In this document: piece after piece, positions 6,949 through 18,173 of the stretch
Numbering within the stretch: the first letter of the stretch is position 1
Layout of the letters: every line of letters begins with the position of its first letter
NCBI RefSeq assembly: GCF_900100605.1
Contig: NZ_FNCN01000001.1
Location: 124,001-188,000 of the forward strand
Direction: 5' to 3'
Origin: Sinosporangium album
GTDB lineage: Bacteria; Actinomycetota; Actinomycetes; Streptosporangiales; Streptosporangiaceae
DNA: 64,000 nt
Notes under the pieces: generated by a model
The model's database searches: none
Told to the model about the DNA's origin: nothing
The model's input: only the letters and a program-made list of their open reading frames with translations
Translations under genes and position numbers: made by a program

Positions 6949-8022
6949 TCAGATGACGGCGCGGAGGGTTCGGGCGGCGAGGCCGGGCGCCAGCCGTACT
7001 CCCGACCCGGAGCCGCCCAGGGCGGCGGCGAGGCCGGGCAGCCCGGGGGACGTGAGGACGACGGGCAGCCGGTCGGGGGTGTAGAGGTCGCAGAAGGCCC
7101 TTCCGCCGGTGACGAGGCCAGCGGCGTCGGGCAGCCGGTCGGCGAGCATGCGCGTGCCCTCCAGGATGTCGGCGTGGTCGGCCCTGCCGTCCACGCTCTC
7201 CGGGTCCGTCCCCCAGGCGTCGCGGCGGAAGCTGACGAGGGCCTGCCCCGCCGCGAGCGGAAGCACGAACAGGTCGTCGGCGACGAAGTAGACCAGAGGG
7301 TCGCCGAAGCGCACCGGCAGCCGCGCGTGCAGGGCGGCGATGCGTTTGCGTCGTGCTCCCGGGGGGTCTCCGAGTGCGACCGGCAGCGGCTCCGGCAGAT
7401 CCCACGGACCGGGCGCGAGAACCACCCTCCGGGCCCGCCACTCCCCTTCGGCCCGCAGCACGTAGCCCTCCCGGGAGGCGTCCACCCGCCGGACGCGCTG
7501 CCCGATCTCGACCGCCGTACGGCCGCGGCCTACGGCGGCCGACAGCAGGGCGTCGGCCAGGGGGCGGGCGTGGACGACCGCCCCCGGCTCATCGTGCGTC
7601 ACGAACACCTCGCCCGGAGCGGTGGACAGACCGGGCAGCATCTCCTCGACCCTGTCCCGCTCGGCCGCGGTGAGCGGGCGCAGCACGGCCGCGACCTGGG
7701 TGCCGAACCGCTCTAGGCGGTCGCGGGGCAGGAGGTACACGATGGGGACCTCGCGGAGGAAGGCCCCGGCGGCGGTGCCGCGCAGGTCGGCGTATCTCGC
7801 GCGGCTGTCGGCGACCAGCGCGCGATGCCCCGGTGTCGCGGCGATGGGGAAGTCCGCGCCGGCCGACCACGCGGTCGCGCCGCTTCCGGGGGCGTGCCGT
7901 TCCAGGACCACGATGTCCCAGTCGGGCCGCAGCCGGCCGGCCTCGTAGGCGACGAAGGCGCCCACGATGCCTCCGCCGACCACGGCCAGGTCCGCCGTCA
8001 ACGCCCGCCCCCGAGCCACCAC
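6949..8022 (-). CDS. DAO-family FAD-dependent oxidoreductase (hydrazine pathway)
   Basis: A 357-residue flavoprotein of the glycine oxidase/D-amino acid oxidase family. The dinucleotide fold VVGGGIVGAFVAYEA starts at about residue 14, a second FAD element is RRVVLAPGPW, and the end reads ALGGSGSGVRLAPG. In known hydrazine pathways a homologue oxidises the N-N linked lysine adduct so that the lysine half leaves as aminoadipate semialdehyde and a free hydrazino acid remains. That role is inferred here from the neighbours. It is the last gene of the operon. The GTG start at 8022 overlaps the cupin gene by 25 nt; a TTG at 8001 giving a 4-nt overlap is a fair alternative. Confidence 0.85.
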   Translation of the reverse strand: MVARGRALTADLAVVGGGIVGAFVAYEAGRLRPDWDIVVLERHAPGSGATAWSAGADFPIAATPGHRALVADSRARYADLRGTAAGAFLREVPIVYLLPRDRLERFGTQVAAVLRPLTAAERDRVEEMLPGLSTAPGEVFVTHDEPGAVVHARPLADALLSAAVGRGRTAVEIGQRVRRVDASREGYVLRAEGEWRARRVVLAPGPWDLPEPLPVALGDPPGARRKRIAALHARLPVRFGDPLVYFVADDLFVLPLAAGQALVSFRRDAWGTDPESVDGRADHADILEGTRMLADRLPDAAGLVTGGRAFCDLYTPDRLPVVLTSPGLPGLAAALGGSGSGVRLAPGLAARTLRAVI

Positions 8023-8342
8023 ACGCTGAAGACCTCAAGCGGCTCCGCCCCCGCCTGCACCTGGTGCGGAACCATGGACGGGAAGTAGACGGCGTCGCCG
8101 GGGCCGACCTCGATCTCCTCGCGGTCGGAGCGCACCGTGCCGGTGCCGGTGCGCACCAGCCACAGCTCGGCCACCTCGTGGACGTCGAGTTCGCTCACGG
8201 CGCCGGAGGGCACCACGAACCTGGAGCCTTGGAACGGCCAGGCCTGCGCGGGCTCCCCGGCTCCGGTGGAGATCTCCTCCACGACCATGCCCGACGGCGT
8301 CGCGTCCGCGGTGCCGTACCGGATTTTCACGGGTCGGGTCAA
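7998..8342 (-). CDS. Single-domain cupin, probable N-N bond forming partner
   Basis: A 114-residue small cupin. The two cupin motifs appear as SELDVHEVAELWLVRTG (H55, E59) and VGPGDAVYFPSMVPHQVQ (H93), so likely metal ligands are present although the first motif lacks the second histidine of a classical HxH. In s56-p1-type pathways a cupin domain fused to a MetRS-like domain rearranges the amino acid ester of N6-hydroxylysine into a hydrazine. Here it is a separate protein. It overlaps the lysine hydroxylase by 4 nt and the DAO-family gene by 25 nt. The function is inferred from this context. Confidence 0.82.
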   Translation of the reverse strand: MTRPVKIRYGTADATPSGMVVEEISTGAGEPAQAWPFQGSRFVVPSGAVSELDVHEVAELWLVRTGTGTVRSDREEIEVGPGDAVYFPSMVPHQVQAGAEPLEVFSVWWLGGGR

Positions 8343-9724
8343 CGTCCCTCCACAGGTGCGAGATCCAAGGGGAACGGGCCGTGCACCGGGATGTGGTCCC
8401 CGGGCGGCGGCGGGACCGCGCCGCGGTCCCGGTCTTGGTCCAACTCCGGCTGCCGGGCCCAGGTCACGGTGGTGGAGAAGCCGTCGAGGCGGTAGATCTC
8501 CTGGTCCGTCAGAGAATTGATCACTTGTGCGCTGCGCCAGGCGCCCAGGCTGAGATTGGGGTCGGCGATTCCATGCGTGCTCTCCGCCCAGTTCTGCACA
8601 TAGATGCGAAGGTGGTCAGGGCCGTCCCACTCCAGGGAGTAGTCCGGTCGTATCCGGAAGTCGCCGTGTTCGTTGACAAGTCGTTCCCGCAGGGGCTCCA
8701 TATAGTCGGGGAAGGGACTGCGGTAGCCCGTACAGAAGATCACCACGTCGGCGACCGAGCGTTCCATCTTCCCGGTGTCGCCCTCGCGCAGTGTCACCGC
8801 CAGCCCGGAGCCATGAGACGAGCCGTGCGAGCGCAGGTCCGTCACCCGGCGGTTCGGCAAAAGGTGGTGGCGCAACCGCCCTCCGGCGATGTCCAGCTCG
8901 TACAGCCGGCGATAGATCGTGCGCAGCAGCGTCTCCGATATGCCGTCGCTGGCCAGCCGCTGGTGCCGGAGCAGTTCCGTCCTGCGCTCCGGCGGCAGGG
9001 TCTGGAAGTGGTCCACGTACGGCGGCGCGAACCACTCGTTGCTGAACGGCGAGTCGTCGAGAGGCAGGAAGCCGACGCGGCTGGAGATCCACAGCAGCGA
9101 GGCGGGGAGTTCCCGATCGTCGGCCAGCAGGTGGTCGACGACCTCCGCGCCGCTCTGGCCGGCGCCGACGACCACGACGCGCCGTCCCCGCACGGCAGGC
9201 CGCACATGCAGCAGGTCATTGCTGTGCAGTACGTCGCGTCCCTCGAACACGGCGGCGAAGTCCGGCAGGGCCGGGACCCGGCCGGACCCGAGCACCAGAG
9301 CCGGGGCGGCGAACCGGCCTCCCTCTTCGCAGACGACCTCGAACCCCGCGTCGGCCACCTGGACGGATTTGACCCGCTGCCCCCAGTGGATGCCGGGCAG
9401 CTGGTCGGCCACCCACTGGTAGTACTGCTCGAATTCCTGCCGGGAGCAGCCGACCTGGTTGGCGATCAGCGAGCGGTAGATGCGGCCGTGGTGCACCAGG
9501 AAGTTGAGATAGGAGTAGCGGCTGGTGGGATCGATGAGTGTGACCAGGTCCTTGAGGTAGGACACCTGGAGACGGGCCCCGGGGAGCATCATCCCCGGGT
9601 GCCATTGGAATCTCGGCCGGGCTTCCAGGAATCGCGCCCGCAGACCGGCGACCGGTCGCGCCAGCGCGGCCAGACTCAGGTTCGACGGCCCCACCCCGAT
9701 GCCGACCACGTCACATTGTTCCAC
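8339..9724 (-). CDS. L-lysine N6-monooxygenase family enzyme
   Basis: FAD- and NADPH-dependent amine hydroxylase of the lysine/ornithine N-monooxygenase family, 461 residues. Visible elements are the FAD motif GIGVGPSNLSLAAL near residue 8, the substrate-region block LKDLVTLIDPTSRYSYLNFL, the NADPH motif VVVVGAGQSGAEV, and the FCTGYRSPFPDY block typical of these enzymes. It should make N6-hydroxylysine, though ornithine cannot be excluded from sequence alone. No siderophore synthetase is nearby. Instead a MetRS-like gene and a cupin flank it, which points to hydrazine formation. The GTG start at 9724 follows aaggaggt. Confidence 0.93.
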   Translation of the reverse strand: MEQCDVVGIGVGPSNLSLAALARPVAGLRARFLEARPRFQWHPGMMLPGARLQVSYLKDLVTLIDPTSRYSYLNFLVHHGRIYRSLIANQVGCSRQEFEQYYQWVADQLPGIHWGQRVKSVQVADAGFEVVCEEGGRFAAPALVLGSGRVPALPDFAAVFEGRDVLHSNDLLHVRPAVRGRRVVVVGAGQSGAEVVDHLLADDRELPASLLWISSRVGFLPLDDSPFSNEWFAPPYVDHFQTLPPERRTELLRHQRLASDGISETLLRTIYRRLYELDIAGGRLRHHLLPNRRVTDLRSHGSSHGSGLAVTLREGDTGKMERSVADVVIFCTGYRSPFPDYMEPLRERLVNEHGDFRIRPDYSLEWDGPDHLRIYVQNWAESTHGIADPNLSLGAWRSAQVINSLTDQEIYRLDGFSTTVTWARQPELDQDRDRGAVPPPPGDHIPVHGPFPLDLAPVEGR

Positions 9725-9749
9725 CGGACCTCCTTGTCGTTCGGAGCGT

Positions 9750-11402
9750 TCACCCGTGTGCCCGGCCGGGTGTCAGCAGGGGGCACGCGCCGACGAGATC
9801 TCCGGCCTTGAGCTCCGTCGCCATGTCGGGGCCGAGCGTGTTCCACCTGATCTCTCCGGCGGATCCCGGATGCCCGAGCGCCTTCCAGAGCTGGTCGCCC
9901 AGTTCCGGAGCGACGGGGTACAGGCCAGCCGAAAGCACAGCCGCCACCGCCAGTTCCGCGTGTACGGCACGGGCGAAAATATCGTGAAAGCGGAGCCGCC
10001 CAGTCAGATGTTCCGCGTCGTCGCCCGTCTCTTCGGCCGCGCGTACCAGCAGATCGAGTGCACGCACGGCCGTATGCGGCGAGAAGCGTTCGACCGAGTA
10101 GGCCTCGTCGACCACCCGCAGCGTGTCGGCGGTCAACGCGCGCAGTTCCCGGACGCGCCGGTCGGCGGAGCGGCCCCACACGGTCGGCGGCCCCCCGTCC
10201 CCGTCGTTCGCCGCCGCCTTACCGCACCGGCGGCCGAGGCCCGTCAGCCAGCCGCGCCACCGGGGGAACACGTCGTCGTAGAGAACAGTGCGCATTCCCG
10301 CCCAAGTGAACGTGGTCTGCGCCGCGACGGGCCTGGTCCAGGTGAGGTAGAGCCGCAGATGGTCGGCGGGAGTGGTCTCCAGGGCGTCCAGCAGCCAGAC
10401 GGCGTGGCGCCTGCTCGTGGAGAACTTCTCCCCGTCCAACCGGTAGAACTCATTGGAGATGAAATCCGTGGGCAGCGGCACGTCGGGGTCGTAGGCATGC
10501 ATGATCGCCGGGAAGAGCACGGCGTGAAAGTAACCGTTGTCGTAGCCGAAGCACTGGGCCACGCGCCGGCCAGGGCGCCACACGCCGGGGTGCCCCGTGC
10601 CGTCTGCACCCGCCGCCAGGTAGCCCGCCGCCATCTCGAACCAGACGTAGACGCGATGCCCCGGGAACTCCTCGACCGGCACCTCGACGCCCCACGTCGC
10701 CGGATGCGACACGGCGATCTCCGGCAGGCCGTCCGCCGCCATCTCGGCGCAGAGCGCGGTCAGGTGGCTGTTCATCCGGACCTGGCTCCAGAAGCGCCGC
10801 AACGGTGAGACATGCCGGGCCAGCGGAAAGTAGAGCCGCTCGCAGTCCCGCAGTTCGCAGGCCGCACCGCAGACCGTGCAGCGGGGGTCGCCGAGGTCGG
10901 CGCAGTCGTTGGGCCGTCCGCAGACCTCGCAGGCGTTGCCGCATGAACGCGTGCCGCAATGCGGACACGAACCGACGACGTAGGCTTCGAACGCCCAGCG
11001 GTCGCAAGGCACGCAATACGGCAGGGGCCGCACGCGCGGCACGATGTCCCCCCGGTCGACCAGGGTGCGGAAGATGCGGCGGGTGAGGTGCGCGTGGTGC
11101 GGGGCCTGGTCGGGGCGGCCGATGACGTCGAAGCGCACTCCGGCGCCCTCCCACGCGTCGACGATCCGGTCGCCGAACCACCTGGCCACATCCGCGGCCT
11201 TGGTGCCTTCCCGGACGGCGTGGGCCTCGGTGTAGCTCTGGTTGTCGTCGATGCCGGTCATCGTCGTCGCGCCGGGCGCACGCCTGCGCAGGTGCCGCCC
11301 CAGGATGTCGGCCGCCAGGTAGGGCCCGGAGAGGTGGCCGAGGTGGAGGTCCCCGTTCGGGGTGGGCGGGGTGGCGGTGATCAGCCAGGGCTCAGCGGAC
11401 AT
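9750..11402 (-). CDS. Methionyl-tRNA synthetase-like hydrazine synthetase subunit
   Basis: A 550-residue class I synthetase-like protein. It carries the adenylate-forming signatures HLGH (residues 20-23, HIGH motif) and KFSTS (326-330, KMSKS motif). Between them is a cysteine-rich zinc insert with many CxxC pairs (about C130-C187). In the s56-p1 and triacsin families such a domain, fused to a cupin, activates an amino acid and esterifies it to N6-hydroxylysine before N-N bond formation. A housekeeping metS is unlikely because the gene lies mid-operon between a hydrolase and a lysine hydroxylase. The start ATG 11402 follows GGGAGGAG and overlaps the hydrolase by 11 nt. The upstream in-frame extension to 11609 lies over the hydrolase and was rejected. 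Confidence 0.9.
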   Translation of the reverse strand: MSAEPWLITATPPTPNGDLHLGHLSGPYLAADILGRHLRRRAPGATTMTGIDDNQSYTEAHAVREGTKAADVARWFGDRIVDAWEGAGVRFDVIGRPDQAPHHAHLTRRIFRTLVDRGDIVPRVRPLPYCVPCDRWAFEAYVVGSCPHCGTRSCGNACEVCGRPNDCADLGDPRCTVCGAACELRDCERLYFPLARHVSPLRRFWSQVRMNSHLTALCAEMAADGLPEIAVSHPATWGVEVPVEEFPGHRVYVWFEMAAGYLAAGADGTGHPGVWRPGRRVAQCFGYDNGYFHAVLFPAIMHAYDPDVPLPTDFISNEFYRLDGEKFSTSRRHAVWLLDALETTPADHLRLYLTWTRPVAAQTTFTWAGMRTVLYDDVFPRWRGWLTGLGRRCGKAAANDGDGGPPTVWGRSADRRVRELRALTADTLRVVDEAYSVERFSPHTAVRALDLLVRAAEETGDDAEHLTGRLRFHDIFARAVHAELAVAAVLSAGLYPVAPELGDQLWKALGHPGSAGEIRWNTLGPDMATELKAGDLVGACPLLTPGRAHG

Positions 11403-12381
11403 GGGCGCTCCTCCCAGTCGTGACTCTGTGGATGAACCGGGCCAGGCGCCGGCGCACGCCGTCCAGGTCGTCCAGCCACGGGACGTGACCCGCGCCGGGC
11501 ACGATCTCGACGGCGCAGTCCCGCATCGCGGCGGCCAACTCCAGCGCGGACGGCTCGGCCGACCACGGATCTTCGGCCCCGTTGAGCACCAGCGCCGGGA
11601 CCGCGACACGGGCGGCGACCTCGGGCAGGTCGGGCCAGGGCAGCCGTCCGGCGAGGAAGGCCCGTACGGCGGAGAGCCGCCATGTCCGGGAGCAGACCTC
11701 CAGGAAGAGCCGATGCCTCGGCCCGAGAACTGGAAAGGTCACGGCCAGGTCGGCGACCAGAAGGCCGCGCAGGGTGGCGGCGTCGCCCGGCGGGTCCGCG
11801 GAGAGCGCGGAGAGCGCGGAGAGCGCGGACTGGGCCGCTCGCGCCCGCTCCCCGAGGGGGCCGACCAGGGCGCGGAGCCGTTCCTCCAGGAGCGCCGGGT
11901 TGTCGATGCGGTCGCGCACCTGACCGGAGATCAGCACGATGCCCGCCGGGCGCACCGCGCCGGCCGCGGCGGCGGCCCGCAGCACCGCCCAGACACCGGC
12001 GGAGTGTCCGACGAGGACGACCGGGCCGGCGCCGCCCTCCCGGTCCAGCAGCTCGACAAGCCGGTCGGCCTGCCGGGCGCACGGGTCGCCTCCCGGATCG
12101 CACCGCGAGGAGGCATAGGCCGTCCGCCAGGTCGAGGGCAGCGGTAGCTCCGCGAGGGTCTCCGCGCCGAGCCCCGGCCCGCCCGGAGCGAGAAGCGCCG
12201 TCGGGGCCGCGGGGGCTCCAGGGCCGGCTCCGGGACCGGCTCCAGGGCCCACTCCGGGACCACTCGACCTCCTCATGACGGGGACTCCAAGGCCGGGTCC
12301 AGGGCCGAGTCCAAGGCCGGGTCCAGGGCCGGGTCCAGGGCCGGGTCCAGGGCCGACTCCGGAGCCGCGCGACCCCCTCAT
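11392..12381 (-). CDS. Alpha/beta hydrolase of the biosynthetic cluster
   Basis: A 329-residue alpha/beta hydrolase. The nucleophile elbow is VGHSAGVWAV, the acid lies in NGAEDPWSAEP, and the catalytic histidine in GAGHVPWLDD, so the triad is intact. ATG 12381 overlaps the SET gene stop by ATGA. The first 75 or so residues are a glycine/proline-rich stretch built on 12-bp DNA repeats, and a near-copy of the start context recurs at ATG 12276, which may be the real or a second start. A further in-frame repeat encodes SALSALSALSA. Possible roles are release of a thioester or ester intermediate, or amide hydrolysis; the substrate is unknown. Confidence 0.85.
   Translation of the reverse strand: MRGSRGSGVGPGPGPGPGPGPGLGLGPGPGLGVPVMRRSSGPGVGPGAGPGAGPGAPAAPTALLAPGGPGLGAETLAELPLPSTWRTAYASSRCDPGGDPCARQADRLVELLDREGGAGPVVLVGHSAGVWAVLRAAAAAGAVRPAGIVLISGQVRDRIDNPALLEERLRALVGPLGERARAAQSALSALSALSADPPGDAATLRGLLVADLAVTFPVLGPRHRLFLEVCSRTWRLSAVRAFLAGRLPWPDLPEVAARVAVPALVLNGAEDPWSAEPSALELAAAMRDCAVEIVPGAGHVPWLDDLDGVRRRLARFIHRVTTGRSAHVR
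12288..12361. repeat. 12-bp tandem repeats encoding a Gly/Pro-rich leader
   Basis: About six units related to ggccgggtccag in the 5' end of the hydrolase gene. They encode GPGPGPG on the minus strand. Because 12 is a multiple of 3, changes in copy number keep the frame. The motif tcatgacggg occurs at both ends of this block, which suggests that the gene start was duplicated. Confidence 0.75.
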
Positions 12382-13007
12382 GACGGGACGGCCGAGCGGT
12401 GCCGCTCCACCACGACGACGCTGCCCCGGCGCAGCGGGATCTCCTGAGGCACGCGCTCCGCCGCCCTCAGCGCGGGGGCCATGCGGCGGCGCCACGCCGA
12501 CACGACCTCCCGCGGCGGCTCGCCCGCGGGACCCGCCGCGCCCGCACGACCGGCCGACCCGACCGTTCCGCCCGTTCCTCCCGACCCTCCCGATCCGGGG
12601 CGGACGACGCGCGCGCACTCGCGGGAACCGCACGCGCAGGCGAACTCCCACGGATCGTCGTAGCGGAACGTGCGGTAGTCGCAGGTCACCTCCTCGCCCG
12701 CGTGGATGTCGCGTACGGCGATGCCTCCGGCGAGGCCGTGGTCCAGAACCGCGGCCTCGCATGAATGGTTGAAAAGGTGCGCGCCTCCGCAGGGCAGGAT
12801 GAGGCTCCGGTCGGACAGCCGATATCCGAACTCGTCGAGCCACTCCAGCACGGCGGACGGCATGCCGTACTGCTCGTCGGCAGCCCACGTGCGGCACCCG
12901 GCGCACGGCCCCCAGACGACGGTGCCCTGGCGGATGTCGCGCAAGGCGATGAGGCCGGTGCCCGCGATGGCGCTGAACCCGGGGTACAGGGCGGAGTTCA
13001 GCATCAC
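12378..13007 (-). CDS. SET-domain protein in a biosynthetic operon
   Basis: A 209-residue protein with a SET methyltransferase core. It has the NHSC block (residues 80-83, in HLFNHSCEAAV), GEEVTCDYRTF with the catalytic tyrosine (about Y111), and a post-SET zinc site with three cysteines (CACGSREC, 124-131). A glycine/alanine-rich linker and a basic C-terminal tail follow. SET proteins use SAM to methylate lysine, usually in proteins. A place inside a lysine-using metabolite operon suggests a small molecule, carrier or cluster protein as target, but this is inference. GTG 13007 overlaps the ATP-grasp stop, with ATG 13004 as alternative, and the 3' end overlaps the hydrolase by ATGA. Confidence 0.85.
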   Translation of the reverse strand: MMLNSALYPGFSAIAGTGLIALRDIRQGTVVWGPCAGCRTWAADEQYGMPSAVLEWLDEFGYRLSDRSLILPCGGAHLFNHSCEAAVLDHGLAGGIAVRDIHAGEEVTCDYRTFRYDDPWEFACACGSRECARVVRPGSGGSGGTGGTVGSAGRAGAAGPAGEPPREVVSAWRRRMAPALRAAERVPQEIPLRRGSVVVVERHRSAVPS

Positions 13008-14305
13008 GCGATCCCGATCCCGAGGATCCGCTCAAGGCGGCTCTCGGCGTCGGCGACGGCGTCGTCGTCGCACCCCACCACCAGGTAGCGCCACTTGCCG
13101 TCGACATCGAGGGTGTCGGCGGTGAGTACGGCACGGGCCGGGGCGGCCGGGTCCGACAGCCCCTCCGCTCCGAGCTTGGCCACCGCGCCTGCGAAGTCGA
13201 GGCCGGCCGCGCCGTGCCGTACATCCGCCCGCCAGCGCACCGGCGAGTCCCCGGACCGCAGCCGACGCGCCAGTTCTTCGAGGTAGGTGCCTCCGGTGCG
13301 GCGCACGTTCGCCTCGGTCACCACGTAGCCGCCGTCGTGGACGCCGCAGTCGACGTCGTAGATCCCGCGGTAGCCGCGCTCCCGCAGCCAGCCGCCGACG
13401 GCGTGCGCCGCCACGACGAGGGCGTGGTGGCGCGGCCCTTCGCGGGCCGGGGTGACCATGCCGGTCCACGCGTTGTTCACGGTGCGCTGGTCGCAGGTGT
13501 AGAACTCGGTCACTCCTCCGTCCTCGACGAGCATCTCCATGCTGGGCGTCGCCGTGAACGGCAGGAACTCCTCGAACACCCAGCCGCAGCCCCGGAGGGG
13601 CTGCCCGGCGACGGCGTCGTGGACCTGCTCCTCGATGGTGCGCTCCGCGTCCCGCCGGATCACGGCGTTCCCGAACCCGTTGGACGCCCGGTTGGTCTTG
13701 ATGATCACGGCCTCGCGCGTGCCGAGAAAGCCGCCGATCCGCTCGGCGAGCTCGGCGACGGTGGCGGCGTGGCCGCCGTCCGCGACGGGCAGCCCCAGAC
13801 CGGCGGCGACCTCGCGGAACCCCCGCTTGGTGTTGATCAGCCGCAGCGCCGCCACGACCGCGTCGTCGGGCGGGTCGCCGTACGGCAGGAGCCGGACGCC
13901 CCGCCGGCGGGCGAACTCCAGCACCGGGGCGTCCAGGACGAAGGGCAGCAGCTCCTCCCGCTCGGCGACGCGGTCCAACGCGCCGAGGTCGGCGGCGACC
14001 TCCAGCGCGTGTGCACCGCGCACCTCGGGCGGGGCGACGATCTCGACCCGGTCGACGTCCAGGTCGATGACGGACGCCACGTAGTCGCGGAAGACCGCAC
14101 TGCACGGAGCGAGCATGACGACGCAGTCCCCGGGGTGCGCCTGCCAGAGCTTGCGGGGGGTCACGGCGGCCATCGCGCGGCGGTAGGCCTCCGTCGGCGC
14201 CTCGACCATGATGTCGTTGACGATGTTGGCCAGGATGGCGCGGCTCGTGCGGCTCGTGCGGCCCGGTCGGCCTGGTCGGCTCGGCCGGCCCGGTCGCGTG
14301 GTCAT
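13004..14305 (-). CDS. ATP-grasp peptide ligase, PGM1-like
   Basis: A 433-residue ATP-grasp ligase with a pre-ATP-grasp N-terminal region, like the PGM1-type ligases that join amino acid units with ATP. Visible parts are the ATP-binding lysine strand EAVIIKTNRASNGFGNAV, the grasp segment WVFEEFLPF, and the metal-binding end YDVDCGVHDGGYVVTEANVRRTGG. It probably activates a carboxylate and forms an amide bond between pathway building blocks, for example the hydrazino acid and an amino acid; this is inference. The extreme N-terminus is a GRPSRPGRPGR repeat. ATG 14305 overlaps the methyltransferase stop by 4 nt. Confidence 0.87.
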   Translation of the reverse strand: MTTRPGRPSRPGRPGRTSRTSRAILANIVNDIMVEAPTEAYRRAMAAVTPRKLWQAHPGDCVVMLAPCSAVFRDYVASVIDLDVDRVEIVAPPEVRGAHALEVAADLGALDRVAEREELLPFVLDAPVLEFARRRGVRLLPYGDPPDDAVVAALRLINTKRGFREVAAGLGLPVADGGHAATVAELAERIGGFLGTREAVIIKTNRASNGFGNAVIRRDAERTIEEQVHDAVAGQPLRGCGWVFEEFLPFTATPSMEMLVEDGGVTEFYTCDQRTVNNAWTGMVTPAREGPRHHALVVAAHAVGGWLRERGYRGIYDVDCGVHDGGYVVTEANVRRTGGTYLEELARRLRSGDSPVRWRADVRHGAAGLDFAGAVAKLGAEGLSDPAAPARAVLTADTLDVDGKWRYLVVGCDDDAVADAESRLERILGIGIA

Positions 14306-15042
14306 GCCTCCACCTCGCGGGTGGCCGTGAAGATCGCGTGGCCGGCGTACATCCAGGCCACGTCGACCTCGCAGAAGCCCGCCTCACGCAGCCAGTCCAC
14401 GTGCTGCGCCACCGTGGAAGGCTTGTCCACAGGGTCGGGCCAGGGCAGGCGGAAGTGGTTCCATTCCGTTCGCTCGAACGCCGCCCACGCGTCGGGCCCG
14501 CCGTACAGCGTCTCCGACGCGTGCCGCACGGCCGCCTCCCACTGGTCACCGGCCAGCGTGCGGGCCCGCCGCCCCGGCGTCTCCACCAGGTCGGCCATGA
14601 CGAAGACGCCGCCCGGTTCGAGCATGGCGTGGATGTCGCGATAGAGCGCCCTCTTGCCGTCGCCGTCGAGGTGGTGCACGGCGAGCGACGTCATCACCCC
14701 GCCGTACAGCGTTCCCTTCCGCCACGCCGACCCCTCAAGGTCCGCCTGCACACGTGAGATCCGCTCGGCGTACGGCGCCAGCCTCCGACCGGCCGCCTCC
14801 AGCATCTCCTCCGAGCCGTCCAGCAGTGTCACCCGCGCGCCGGGAACACGGCTCAGGTATTCCTCGGCGAGCCGTCCCTCTCCGCAGCACAGGTCCAGGA
14901 CATGCGCGACCGGGAGGTCGCGGAGCAGATCGCACACCGTGGCGACCTGCTCCCGGCGCCTGGGCACGAAGGCGTCACCGTACTTGATGAACACGTCTGT
15001 ATCGGACAGCTCCCAGCCGTCGGCTGCGGGGGACTCCGTCAT
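14302..15042 (-). CDS. Class I SAM-dependent methyltransferase
   Basis: A 246-residue small-molecule methyltransferase. Motif I is VLDLCCGEGRLAEEYL, followed by the acidic residue at the end of strand 2 (VTLLDGSEEML) and a motif II/III region MTSLAVHHLDGDGK. It likely N- or O-methylates an intermediate or product of the cluster; the position cannot be predicted. It overlaps the ATP-grasp gene by ATGA and lies about 160 nt downstream of the aminomutase gene. It is the first member of the tightly coupled eight-gene run down to the DAO-family oxidase. Confidence 0.88.
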   Translation of the reverse strand: MTESPAADGWELSDTDVFIKYGDAFVPRRREQVATVCDLLRDLPVAHVLDLCCGEGRLAEEYLSRVPGARVTLLDGSEEMLEAAGRRLAPYAERISRVQADLEGSAWRKGTLYGGVMTSLAVHHLDGDGKRALYRDIHAMLEPGGVFVMADLVETPGRRARTLAGDQWEAAVRHASETLYGGPDAWAAFERTEWNHFRLPWPDPVDKPSTVAQHVDWLREAGFCEVDVAWMYAGHAIFTATREVEA

Positions 15043-15202
15043 CTACGCACCTCCAGGGGCGTGGAGTTCTCGGCGTTCGGATTGAGCAGTGCGTGTCGGT
15101 GGCAGTGCGTGTCAGTGCGTCGCGGTGTGTGCGCGATCTCCAGGGCGCGCCGCCGAGGGCGCACGGCGTGTGGATCGTCTCCCCTGCGGCGGGCGGCGGC
15201 TT

Positions 15203-16258
15203 TCAGCTCCGCTCGGCGGTGGGCGCCGGCGGATACACGTGCTCCTCGTCCCACGGATCGGTGACGCGGTGGGAGTCGCCGTCGGCCCGGATGTAGGTGG
15301 GGCCGATCGGCACCTTGCCATGGCCGCCGGGTATGTCGAGCACGTAGGTCGGCTGGCAGACGCCGGACACCCGCCCCCGCAGCCTCCTCACCAGCTCCTG
15401 GCCCTCGCCGACGGTGGTGCGGAAATGGCTGGTGCCCTGCGCGAGATCACCGTGGTGGAGGTAGTACGGCTTCACCCGATTGACGATCAGCGTCCGGAAC
15501 AGGTCCTCCAGCGCCTCAGGCGTGTCGTTCACGCCCCTCAGCAGGACCGTCTGGCTCAGCAGAGGGATGCCACCCCGGCTCAGGCGGCTCAGCGCGGCCC
15601 GAGCGGCTTCGCCGATCTCCTGACTGTGATTGGTGTGGACGACCACCCACACCGGAGTGTCGGTGCCGAGGGCGGCCACGAGTTCCTCGGTGATGCGGTC
15701 GGGGTCGACCACGGGCACCCGCGTGTGGAACCGGATCACGTTGACGTGCTCGATCGCGTCCAGCGCGGCCATGATCGGCCGTAGTCGGGCCGGCGATATG
15801 ATCAACGGGTCGCCGCCGGTGAGAATGACCTCCCACACCTGCGGGTGCGTACGGATGTAATCCAGCGCGGCCTCCATTTCGGTCGCGCTGAGCATCCCCT
15901 CCCCTGGGCCGACGACCTCGCGCCGGAAGCAGAACCGGCAGTAGACCGGGCACAGGTGCATCGGTTTGAGCAGCAACCGGTCCGGATAGCGGTGGGTGAT
16001 CCCCTTCACCGGGGTGAAGGGGTCGTCGCCGATCGGGTCCAGCCGTTCCTCGGGAGTAGTGACGAGTTCGGCCGCCGTCGGAATGAACTGCATGGCGACG
16101 GGGTCGTCTCGATCCCTGATCCGGTCCTGCATCGCACCGGTGATACTGATCGCGTACTGCTTTGCGACGTCGCGGATTTCGACAAGGGCGTCTTCGGCGA
16201 TGAGGTCGTTCTTCAGCAGGGAGTCCGGGGTTCGGATCGTTTTCGGGCGGCGAGGCAT
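15203..16258 (-). CDS. kamA: Lysine 2,3-aminomutase (radical SAM)
   Basis: Radical SAM, PLP-dependent enzyme that interconverts L-lysine and beta-lysine. The 351-residue protein holds the CxxxCxxC iron-sulfur motif (C103, C107, C110 in HLCPVYCRFC), the SAM-associated GGDPL block, and the PLP-lysine region LDIPGGHGKVP. It is shorter than the 416-residue clostridial KamA but in range for KamA/EpmB-like relatives. There is no epmA or efp gene nearby, and the gene sits in a lysine-using cluster, so a biosynthetic role is favoured. ATG 16258 follows ggaaagg; the in-frame extension to 16570 is unlikely. Confidence 0.88.
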   Translation of the reverse strand: MPRRPKTIRTPDSLLKNDLIAEDALVEIRDVAKQYAISITGAMQDRIRDRDDPVAMQFIPTAAELVTTPEERLDPIGDDPFTPVKGITHRYPDRLLLKPMHLCPVYCRFCFRREVVGPGEGMLSATEMEAALDYIRTHPQVWEVILTGGDPLIISPARLRPIMAALDAIEHVNVIRFHTRVPVVDPDRITEELVAALGTDTPVWVVVHTNHSQEIGEAARAALSRLSRGGIPLLSQTVLLRGVNDTPEALEDLFRTLIVNRVKPYYLHHGDLAQGTSHFRTTVGEGQELVRRLRGRVSGVCQPTYVLDIPGGHGKVPIGPTYIRADGDSHRVTDPWDEEHVYPPAPTAERS

Positions 16259-16606
16259 CGCATCACCTTTCCTCGTGACATGGCCACTGCGGAGGCGGAG
16301 TACGCCGGGGCACCGGACATCCAGCGAAAATCCAGAGTCCGTGAACTGGGCCGTCGCATACCGACACGCCGGCACATGGCGGATCCGTGGAATTGCACGA
16401 GCATGGGCACGGTGATTCAACGCAGCATATGTCGGAACACTGCGAAAACCTTGAAACAAACGACACGTGATCTCAGGTGATGCACAGAGCGTGCGGCTTG
16501 CCACTCCGAGGCAGCGGCTGTGCGCGCCGACGAGAAAAGTGTTCCGGCGCCGCCGACCACGGTTCTCCACATAGAGAAGAACACTTACATGATCGCTGTG
16601 ACGCCA

Positions 16607-16636
16607 AGCCTATGGAATCGCACTCGCGACCGTCAA
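16607..16636 (-). promoter_or_regulatory. Candidate sigma70-type promoter for the kamA operon
   Basis: On the minus strand TTGACG (16636-16631) is followed after 18 nt by TAGGCT (16612-16607), matching the actinobacterial -35 and TANNNT -10 patterns. It would drive kamA and the downstream biosynthetic genes. Pattern match only. Confidence 0.35.
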
Positions 16637-16835
16637 GAGGCTAATGGCAAGATGATGCTCGAAAGAGCAGGAATATGCCTGACCGCAAACCCGTCGCCCA
16701 TATTTTCGGGCGACCTGCCCGATCACATGGAACACCTTTATGCCGATACAGACGGACCTGCGCACACCCTCTCTCTAAAGTCACGCTGCGTATTTTTAAA
16801 TTAAAGCAGCACGGCAGCCGGAACTCGAATAATGG

Positions 16836-16856
16836 GCGCACCGATCGATCGTGCGC
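16836..16856 (-). terminator. Possible terminator after the MFS gene
   Basis: Short dyad gcgcac (16836-16841) and gtgcgc (16851-16856) just past the MFS stop codon. On the minus strand it leads into the AT-rich ccattattcg. The stem is short, so this is weak. Confidence 0.3.
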
Positions 16857-16869
16857 ACCGACCCGGGCC

Positions 16870-18132
16870 TCAGGCGGAACGGCTTCGCGAGAGCAGGGCG
16901 GAACCGAAGACGGCCGCGACGAGCGTGCTCGCGCAGGCGACCGCGAAGGCCGCCTCCAGCGACTGGGCCGCCAGCAGACCCCCGATCGCGGCGCCGACAG
17001 GGAGACCGGACATGTTGATACTTGAGGACACGGCGAGGACCTGTCCCAGGCGGGCCGGATCCGTCATGCGCTGACGGAGGGTCAGCACACTCACGTCGAT
17101 GGGCCCGCCGAAGGCCCCGATCGTCAGCAGCGCGACGGCGAGCGCCACCACTCCTGCCCCGGCGATTCCCGGAACGAAGGCGGCGGTCATGAGGACAAGC
17201 CCTATGCCGATGATCCGGTGCTCCCGCCCGATCACGCTCAGCCTCCCCGCGACCAAGGCGCCGACCGCCCCGATCACCCCCATCGCCGCCCAGATCACCC
17301 CGGTCATCAGGTCGGCGTCGCCCTTGCCGAACTCCTCCGCGAGCAGGACCGGGGTGACGACGACGAAGATCCCCCAGCTCACCATGTAGAGCGAGTACGA
17401 CACGGCGAGTCCCCGCAGCACCCGGTGCCGCACGACATAGACGACGCCTCTGGCCGACTCGCGCAGAAGGGAGGAGGACGCCTGCCGCGAATCGCGCGCA
17501 GGCCGGCTGCGCAGCAGCGGGACGAGCGCGACGACGGAGACGAGGTAGAGCACGGACACGACGGTCAGGGTCGGGCTTCCGCCGAGGAGGCTCATGAGTG
17601 CTCCGGCCGCCACCGGCCCGAGTACCTCCGCCACGCCGAACACGCTCGTGTCCAGCGCGTTCGCCCGGTCGAGGGCGCGGCGTGGGACGAGGCGCGGGAT
17701 CAGCGTCCGCACTCCGGCCAGGCTCAGCGGACTGGTCAACGAGTAGAGGAAGGCCACCGTCAGCAGGAGCTGCGGGCTGAGGAAGCCGAGGGGCTGCGCC
17801 AAGGCCGTCAACGCCACCACAGCGGCGCTGAGAACGAGGTCCACGACCAGCGCCGAGACCGACCCGAAGCGATCAAGAAACGCTCCCGCGATGGGACTGA
17901 CCACAAATCCCGGGGCGAAGGCCAGGAACGCCACGACTCCGGCCAAGGACGCCGAATCAAATTGCTGGATCGTGTACAGAACGAAGACCAGCGTCATCAT
18001 CTCGGCGGCGAGACGGCTGAAGAATGCGGCCACGATGAGCTGTGCCATGTTCGGCAGCCTCAGAACCCGGCGGTAGCTCAACGCGACGGCGCTGTCCGGT
18101 CCGTCGAATTCCTCTTGTGCTGACTGCGCCAT
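16870..18132 (-). CDS. MFS transporter, probable product exporter
   Basis: A 420-residue major facilitator superfamily protein with about 12 hydrophobic segments. A motif A-like loop is seen in AGAFLDRFGSVSAL, and a second GRLSVIGREHR loop starts the C-terminal half. It resembles drug-efflux permeases of the MFS_3/EntS type. As the upstream gene of the minus-strand cluster it is the natural candidate for product export or self-resistance. The start ATG 18132 has GGAG 8 nt upstream; a GTG at 18147 is possible. A promoter-like element and a large inverted repeat lie just upstream. Confidence 0.88.
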   Translation of the reverse strand: MAQSAQEEFDGPDSAVALSYRRVLRLPNMAQLIVAAFFSRLAAEMMTLVFVLYTIQQFDSASLAGVVAFLAFAPGFVVSPIAGAFLDRFGSVSALVVDLVLSAAVVALTALAQPLGFLSPQLLLTVAFLYSLTSPLSLAGVRTLIPRLVPRRALDRANALDTSVFGVAEVLGPVAAGALMSLLGGSPTLTVVSVLYLVSVVALVPLLRSRPARDSRQASSSLLRESARGVVYVVRHRVLRGLAVSYSLYMVSWGIFVVVTPVLLAEEFGKGDADLMTGVIWAAMGVIGAVGALVAGRLSVIGREHRIIGIGLVLMTAAFVPGIAGAGVVALAVALLTIGAFGGPIDVSVLTLRQRMTDPARLGQVLAVSSSINMSGLPVGAAIGGLLAAQSLEAAFAVACASTLVAAVFGSALLSRSRSA

Positions 18133-18173
18133 CGGCAGAAGCTCCACTCGTCACAGGCCGGAAACCCACCATG

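Follow-up and report, generated by a model that had tools for sequence, protein, structure and literature searches.

A predicted deoxynegamycin-type hydrazide gene cluster in Sinosporangium album with a split hydrazine synthetase in the place of NegJ

In Sinosporangium album, a run of ten genes on the minus strand of contig NZ_FNCN01000001.1 (assembly GCF_900100605.1) probably constitutes a negamycin-type hydrazide cluster in which the heme enzyme NegJ is replaced by a split hydrazine synthetase and the hydroxylase that would provide the 5-OH of negamycin is absent. The cluster occupies positions 6949-18147 of the analyzed stretch of 64,000 nucleotides (positions 124,001 to 188,000 of the contig; hereafter, the window), and its downstream part is a four-gene cassette encoding a protein related to methionyl-tRNA synthetase (MetRS), a lysine N6-hydroxylase, a cupin and a DAO-family flavoenzyme. 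The gene content, the key residues, the recurrence of the upstream scaffold with either of two N-N bond-forming modules and the conflicting histories of scaffold and cassette can be read from the sequences compared here. We lean towards the view that two unrelated N-N chemistries, nitrite reduction by a heme enzyme and an ATP-driven rearrangement on a cupin, have been interchanged at least two times in one antibiotic scaffold, and that the hydroxylase-free version in the window holds genes for making deoxynegamycin-type compounds.

A previous sequence-only reading of the window had described the cassette as a hydrazine-forming enzyme set. Its four open reading frames are all present at 6949-11402 on the minus strand, with the expected Pfam families. 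The extent that it gave was incomplete, as six more cluster genes lie upstream, up to position 18147, and the negamycin-type scaffold was missed.

The four-gene cassette as a hydrazine synthetase

Judging from its sequences, the cassette is very probably a hydrazine synthetase. This identification is well supported because the zinc ligands of RHS1 are kept at identical spacing and because a separate canonical MetRS exists in the genome. The closest PDB match of the cupin is RHS1 (5uqp, 3e-12), a zinc cupin for which N-N bond formation was proven by experiment, with the ligands Asp63, His65, Glu69 and His103 (PMC8664883). Residues D53/H55/E59/H93 of the window cupin reproduce D63/H65/E69/H103 of RHS1 in identity and spacing, and the zinc cupin pattern (D/H)-x-H-x3-E...H, including the catalytic Glu, is present. 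The gene of the partner lysine N6-hydroxylase adjoins (PF13434, 3e-103).

The MetRS-like protein keeps, as had been claimed, the HLGH motif (near residue 20), KFSTS (at residue 326) and a cysteine-rich insert (twelve Cys between approximately residues 130 and 187), and its best PDB matches are 9l8v and 9vq4. Its MetRS fold and ATP motifs would also suit a second methionyl-tRNA synthetase, such as a resistance copy, an explanation that we find hardly credible: the protein lies far under every NCBIfam MetRS cut-off (248 versus 553), its pocket residues are changed, and relatives carry it together with the hydroxylase and the cupin. Additionally, a canonical MetRS is encoded elsewhere in the genome (G000:C28; 477.6 bits versus 237.7 for the window protein), so the absence of any other metS gene, which had been named as an argument against a hydrazine synthetase, does not apply. 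These scores and the canonical enzyme also led us to reject the MetRS-like protein as the housekeeping MetRS.

In the direction of transcription, the cassette genes are ordered MetRS-like, lysine N6-hydroxylase, cupin and DAO enzyme, spaced as in one operon by a gap of 25 bp and overlaps of 4 and 25 bp, and each has a third-position GC of 0.86-0.92. The arrangement is not due to chance, as these four genes, likewise separate and identically ordered, are also found at G170:C171 and in Streptomyces ossamyceticus NRRL B-3822. The cupin and MetRS-like proteins are indeed two proteins with the hydroxylase gene between them, as the sequence-only reading had reported. What stands of that reading is that the genes encode a set resembling the Spb38-40 hydrazine synthetase, its catalytic motifs intact, and the chemistry that it suggested is likely; the split, which it had presented as the remarkable point, is not new, since the 2021 RHS1 paper reported that these enzymes are sometimes two standalone proteins (PMC8664883). 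Separate, unfused cupins were also found at several further loci in the searched genomes. Of more interest is its setting, a negamycin-type scaffold in which the cassette takes the place of the NegJ heme enzyme.

In a phylogenetic tree, the clade of the window MetRS-like protein is separate from that of the fused cupin-MetRS proteins, and the pocket segments and residues of the two differ. At two further loci, L043 and L044 (G285 and G268), the hydroxylase, cupin and DAO enzyme are 50-60% identical to those of the window and the MetRS-like protein falls in the fused-type clade; this pattern suggests that the subunit which selects the substrate was exchanged by itself.

One scaffold with two N-N modules

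The genes of the cluster are listed in Table 1. From the methyltransferase through the ATP-grasp, SET and hydrolase genes and on to the cassette, all run in the same direction with overlaps of 4-22 bp. KamA precedes the methyltransferase by 160 bp and the MFS gene, a probable member of the cluster, precedes KamA by 611 bp. KamA matches the clostridial lysine 2,3-aminomutase (PDB 2a5h, E 6e-78) and keeps two Asp residues and one Lys residue at the aligned positions; we take the former to bind the lysine side chain and the latter to be the pyridoxal phosphate lysine. KamA is absent from the genomes of 10 relatives, on which ground a core genomic gene was rejected, and the ATP-grasp ligase has no other copy among 347 genomes of the order; therefore, we regard these as cluster genes and not as local housekeeping genes.

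Table 1. Genes of the Sinosporangium album cluster in the order of transcription (window coordinates; L064, Streptomyces ossamyceticus; L088-L090, closest scaffolds with a KinJ/NegJ-type enzyme)
Product	Coordinates (strand)	Length	Family or structural match	Identity to related proteins
MFS exporter (probable member)	16870..18147 (-)	425 aa	PF07690 4.5e-35	40% in G1009 (L094); 33% in L088-L090
Lysine 2,3-aminomutase KamA	15203..16258 (-)	351 aa (ATG start at 16258)	TIGR03822 488.8 bits, above cut-off	
Class I S-adenosylmethionine methyltransferase, candidate hydrazine N-methyltransferase	14302..15042 (-)		PF13649 8e-16	67-71% in L064, L088-L090
PreATP-grasp ligase, candidate hydrazide-bond former	13004..14305 (-)		PF18604 3e-17; PDB 8ynd (ATP-grasp peptide ligase)	69-76% in L064, L088-L090
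SET-domain protein	12378..13007 (-)		PF00856 6e-9	62-63% in L088-L090; 58% in G399
Alpha/beta hydrolase (S33 peptidase-like)	11392..12381 (-)		PF12697 3e-8	52-55% in L088-L090
MetRS-like hydrazine synthetase subunit	9750..11402 (-)	550 aa	tRNA-synt_1g 5e-70	64% in S. ossamyceticus
Lysine N6-hydroxylase	8339..9724 (-)	461 aa	Lys_Orn_oxgnase PF13434 3e-103; PDB 5o8p (lysine 6-monooxygenase) E 1e-65	
Free-standing zinc cupin, putative N-N bond former	7998..8342 (-)	114 aa, TTG start	Cupin_2 8e-14	
DAO-family flavoenzyme, predicted to release a free hydrazino acid from the hydrazine intermediate	6949..8022 (-)		PF01266 2e-26	58-60% in L064, L043, L044

The start codon of the hydrolase is uncertain, as a GP-rich repeat lies at the start of its open reading frame (window 12250-12390).

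Based on a scan of genomes with an ATP-grasp alignment, we located the same scaffold with the same cassette in S. ossamyceticus NRRL B-3822 (L064), in the gene order of the window without the SET and hydrolase genes. Relative to the window, the identities are 76% for KamA, 67% for the methyltransferase, 69% for the ATP-grasp ligase, 64% for the MetRS-like protein, 62% for the hydroxylase, 48% for the cupin and 58% for the DAO enzyme. A genome of a different family, G399, has the same seven genes together with SET, JmjC-like and Mph-like phosphotransferase genes (KamA 61%, methyltransferase 48%, ATP-grasp 47%, MetRS-like 43%, hydroxylase 45%, DAO 36%, with a divergent cupin); a further scan of 35 genomes of its family gave no second cluster. 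G1009 carries a distant counterpart in which the cupin and the MetRS-like protein are fused, and an annotated cluster of the same layout with a MetRS-like protein of ~665 aa is found in Streptomyces sp. SAT1. By its gene families, the minimal set common to these clusters, i.e., the aminomutase, methyltransferase, ATP-grasp ligase and four-gene cassette, covers the parts needed for a beta-lysyl N-methylhydrazinoacetate hydrazide.

The cassette could instead make a hydrazino acid on its own, as in the s56-p1 or triacsin pathways, and have unrelated neighbors, since its four genes are coupled and would be enough to produce such an acid, and the G170 cassette stands without these scaffold genes. 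This is very improbable, given that KamA, the methyltransferase and the ATP-grasp ligase co-occur with it in three distant genomes and that tight overlaps run across the boundary.

Other ATP-grasp matches in Streptomyces (L061-L063) are lone genes and were not taken as related clusters, and a second ATP-grasp gene at G399:C16 has a different neighborhood. At L093 (G843), an aminomutase (76%) and ATP-grasp (53%) pair occurs without the methyltransferase or an N-N module, adjoining genes for a flavin adenine dinucleotide (FAD) oxidase and a DMT-type exporter, and perhaps serves a different beta-lysyl amide. A gene for a beta-lactamase-family serine hydrolase, not found in the window, lies immediately upstream of the aminomutase gene in S. 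ossamyceticus (L064:6259-7455) and at L089:3781-4965.

In six further genomes (L065 and L088-L092), namely Dactylosporangium aurantiacum and five of Streptomycetaceae type (family f20), aminomutase, JmjC-like, methyltransferase, ATP-grasp and SET genes are present, and the place of the cassette is taken by a protein of 575-620 aa without a Pfam match. The KinJ residues R497, M498, N501, H504, H541, R551 and R570 have been reported as conserved or needed (PMC12154649). All seven occur at exact spacing in each of the six proteins, and 20,000 shuffles of one of them gave none with six residues and a maximum of five. By this residue test, the six proteins are KinJ/NegJ-family heme enzymes. A PDB search with the KinJ-like protein gave no match; as to a GAF-like C-terminal domain, the best Foldseek matches, mostly phytochrome/GAF proteins, are insignificant, and the AlphaFold model of the protein is of low confidence and poor in the key region.

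The scaffold closest to that of the window is carried by L088-L090, which belong to one genus (aminomutase 78-81%, ATP-grasp 73-76%, methyltransferase 68-71%; Table 1 for the SET, hydrolase and MFS proteins). The negamycin cluster, by its published description, contains a KinJ homologue and genes for N-methylation, lysine hydroxylation, beta-lysine formation and an ATP-grasp enzyme, and NegJ converts glycine to hydrazinoacetate (PMC12154649). The gene content of L088-L090 fits this description, and by this likeness L088-L090 may represent the neg cluster itself. No KinJ homologue was found in the genomes of the window (at 1e-5), S. ossamyceticus, G399 and G1009, with a query that does match the clusters of five other genomes; the cassette is therefore the only hydrazine source recognized in these four. 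A FemAB/GNAT-like gene lies between the SET and hydrolase genes at L089:9936-11168, with a similar gene in L088 and none seen in the window cluster. Together with the S33-like hydrolase, its product could attach and remove leucine, leucylnegamycin being known.

The trees of scaffold and cassette genes conflict. The tree of the concatenated scaffold proteins places the window and S. ossamyceticus together with the NegJ-type L088-L090 (100/100). A scaffold clade of the window, S. ossamyceticus and G399 was rejected (approximately unbiased test, p 0.00015), and so was a sister relationship of the window and S. ossamyceticus (p 0.005), as the latter groups with NegJ-type clusters (91/93); this tree has ten rows, one long branch and an empty SET block for S. 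ossamyceticus, and the groups were named after the first comparisons. In the MetRS-like and hydroxylase trees, the window and S. ossamyceticus are sisters (100/99 and 99/98, respectively). Along the well-supported branches, the module type must have changed two or more times; these trees are compatible with either module as the older one and with an exchange in either direction.

Outside the cluster, window positions 19685-40065 hold a probable defence island, with a kinase-helicase fusion (DruE/PD-T4-6-like), a full-length DpdE helicase (1644 bits), a DrmMI-like methyltransferase, a GajB-like helicase and a type I methyltransferase-like gene.

Proposed route and product

A JmjC-like gene is present in all NegJ-type clusters and in G399. 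Its family keeps H-x-E...H and a lysine in 7/7 members, and among the matches of its structure model are the JmjC oxygenases NO66 and MINA53 (E down to 7e-12). This gene is the best candidate for the hydroxylase of the negamycin 5-OH. No JmjC homologue was found in the genomes of the window or S. ossamyceticus; therefore, the product of the window cluster is predicted to lack the 5-OH. The window cluster has no Mph-like phosphotransferase gene; such a gene occurred in just three clusters (G399, L058:13290-14216; L065:862-1740; L092:2893-3762), each of which also has the JmjC gene, and self-resistance by phosphorylation of the 5-OH is a speculation.

In the proposed route, the lysine N6-hydroxylase would convert lysine to N6-hydroxylysine, and the MetRS-like protein would activate glycine with ATP and esterify it to the hydroxylamine oxygen. 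The zinc cupin would then rearrange the ester to form the N-N bond, and the DAO enzyme would cleave off the lysine side to leave hydrazinoacetate, which the methyltransferase would N-methylate. In parallel, KamA would convert lysine to beta-lysine. The ATP-grasp ligase would join beta-lysine and N-methylhydrazinoacetate into a hydrazide, a 5-deoxynegamycin-type compound (beta-lysyl N-methylhydrazinoacetate), to be exported by the MFS protein. For Sinosporangium album, we infer every chemical step of this route, glycine as the substrate, and the structure and stereochemistry of the product.

The hydrazino acid made is, with good confidence, hydrazinoacetate. The MetRS-like protein might instead take alanine, serine or another amino acid, giving a negamycin analogue with a substituted hydrazino acid, as its clade stands apart from the fused clade and its pocket segments differ. 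We consider this unlikely, given that the methyltransferase and ATP-grasp ligase are 68-76% identical to those of the NegJ-type clusters, where NegJ makes hydrazinoacetate from glycine; from their identities to the L088-L090 enzymes, the two probably act on the same substrates.

The product itself is likely a deoxynegamycin-type hydrazide. PreATP-grasp ligases make diverse peptides, and a different hydrazine or hydrazide outside the negamycin family, such as a beta-lysyl peptide with a hydrazine cap, would accommodate the unexplained SET protein and hydrolase and the missing hydroxylase. Such a compound is improbable, since the seven-gene core corresponds to the parts needed for beta-lysyl N-methylhydrazinoacetate and is found again in S. 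ossamyceticus, where the SET and hydrolase genes are missing. Whichever the N-N module, almost every negamycin-type cluster keeps the small SET protein, S. ossamyceticus being an exception; this protein perhaps methylates a ribosomal or other protein for self-protection.

Several points weigh against a deoxynegamycin-type product made from glycine. The link to negamycin goes through the published description of the Kitasatospora purpeofusca cluster, compared by description only, and the substrates of the methyltransferase and ATP-grasp ligase are assigned by analogy. The pocket residues of the window MetRS clade differ from those of the fused clade, and glycine is a putative substrate. The SET protein and the hydrolase have no place in the proposed route. 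Finally, the product and the enzyme activities are predictions from genes, and the stereochemistry of KamA is not readable from sequence.

Relation to known systems

3-epi-Deoxynegamycin is a known natural product, as is its leucyl adduct, and both show readthrough activity that is selective for eukaryotes (PMC10296333). If our prediction is true, the window cluster would supply genes for deoxynegamycin-type compounds, which as a class cause readthrough of stop codons, and a list of parts for a pathway needing no nitrite or partner ferredoxin. We found no description of biosynthetic genes for such compounds in the literature searched, and for negamycin with a hydrazine synthetase only the preprint PMC12154649, subscription papers lying outside the search.

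The families of the cassette are those of Spb38/Spb39/Spb40 (s56-p1) and NngKLM (N-nitroglycine), with the expected course from Lys through N6-OH-Lys and a Lys-Gly hydrazine to hydrazinoacetate, but in the window the cupin and MetRS-like proteins are separate and the downstream genes are entirely different. RHS1 of Rhodococcus jostii, with its standalone MetRS-like partner, is a free-standing zinc cupin with the ligand spacing of the window protein (PMC8664883, PDB 5UQP); that system takes glutamate, and the gene mined alongside it is saccharopine dehydrogenase-like, whereas the window has a DAO enzyme. Separate genes for the MetRS-like protein, cupin and N6-lysine hydroxylase also occur as Afn8/Afn9/Afn18 of albofungin, for which a split was proposed and where the set serves an aromatic polyketide through a hydrazine transferase (PMC11705231). 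The plasmid cluster of Streptomyces sp. SAT1 (NZ_CP016083.1) combines MFS, hydrolase, methyltransferase, PGM1-type ATP-grasp, SET, aminomutase, monooxygenase, FAD enzyme and MetRS-like genes; its MetRS-like protein has the size of the fused cupin form of its relative G1009, and its scaffold is far more distant (ATP-grasp 37.5%).

Among the closest known systems is also the negamycin cluster of Kitasatospora purpeofusca (NegJ; Wang, Wei and Ryan 2025), which, by the description in PMC12154649, shares the genes for beta-lysine formation, N-methylation and the ATP-grasp enzyme. The loci fitting that description are 68-81% identical to the window in these enzymes, whereas the window genome is without NegJ/KinJ and the JmjC-type hydroxylase and has the hydroxylase-MetRS-cupin-DAO cassette instead. 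Kenney and co-workers (2025) suggested, for other pathways, that KinJ-type enzymes and hydrazine synthetases may replace each other as suppliers of hydrazino acids (PMC12154649). The occurrence of one negamycin-type scaffold, up to 81% identical, with each of the two modules makes this idea directly testable by genetic swapping.

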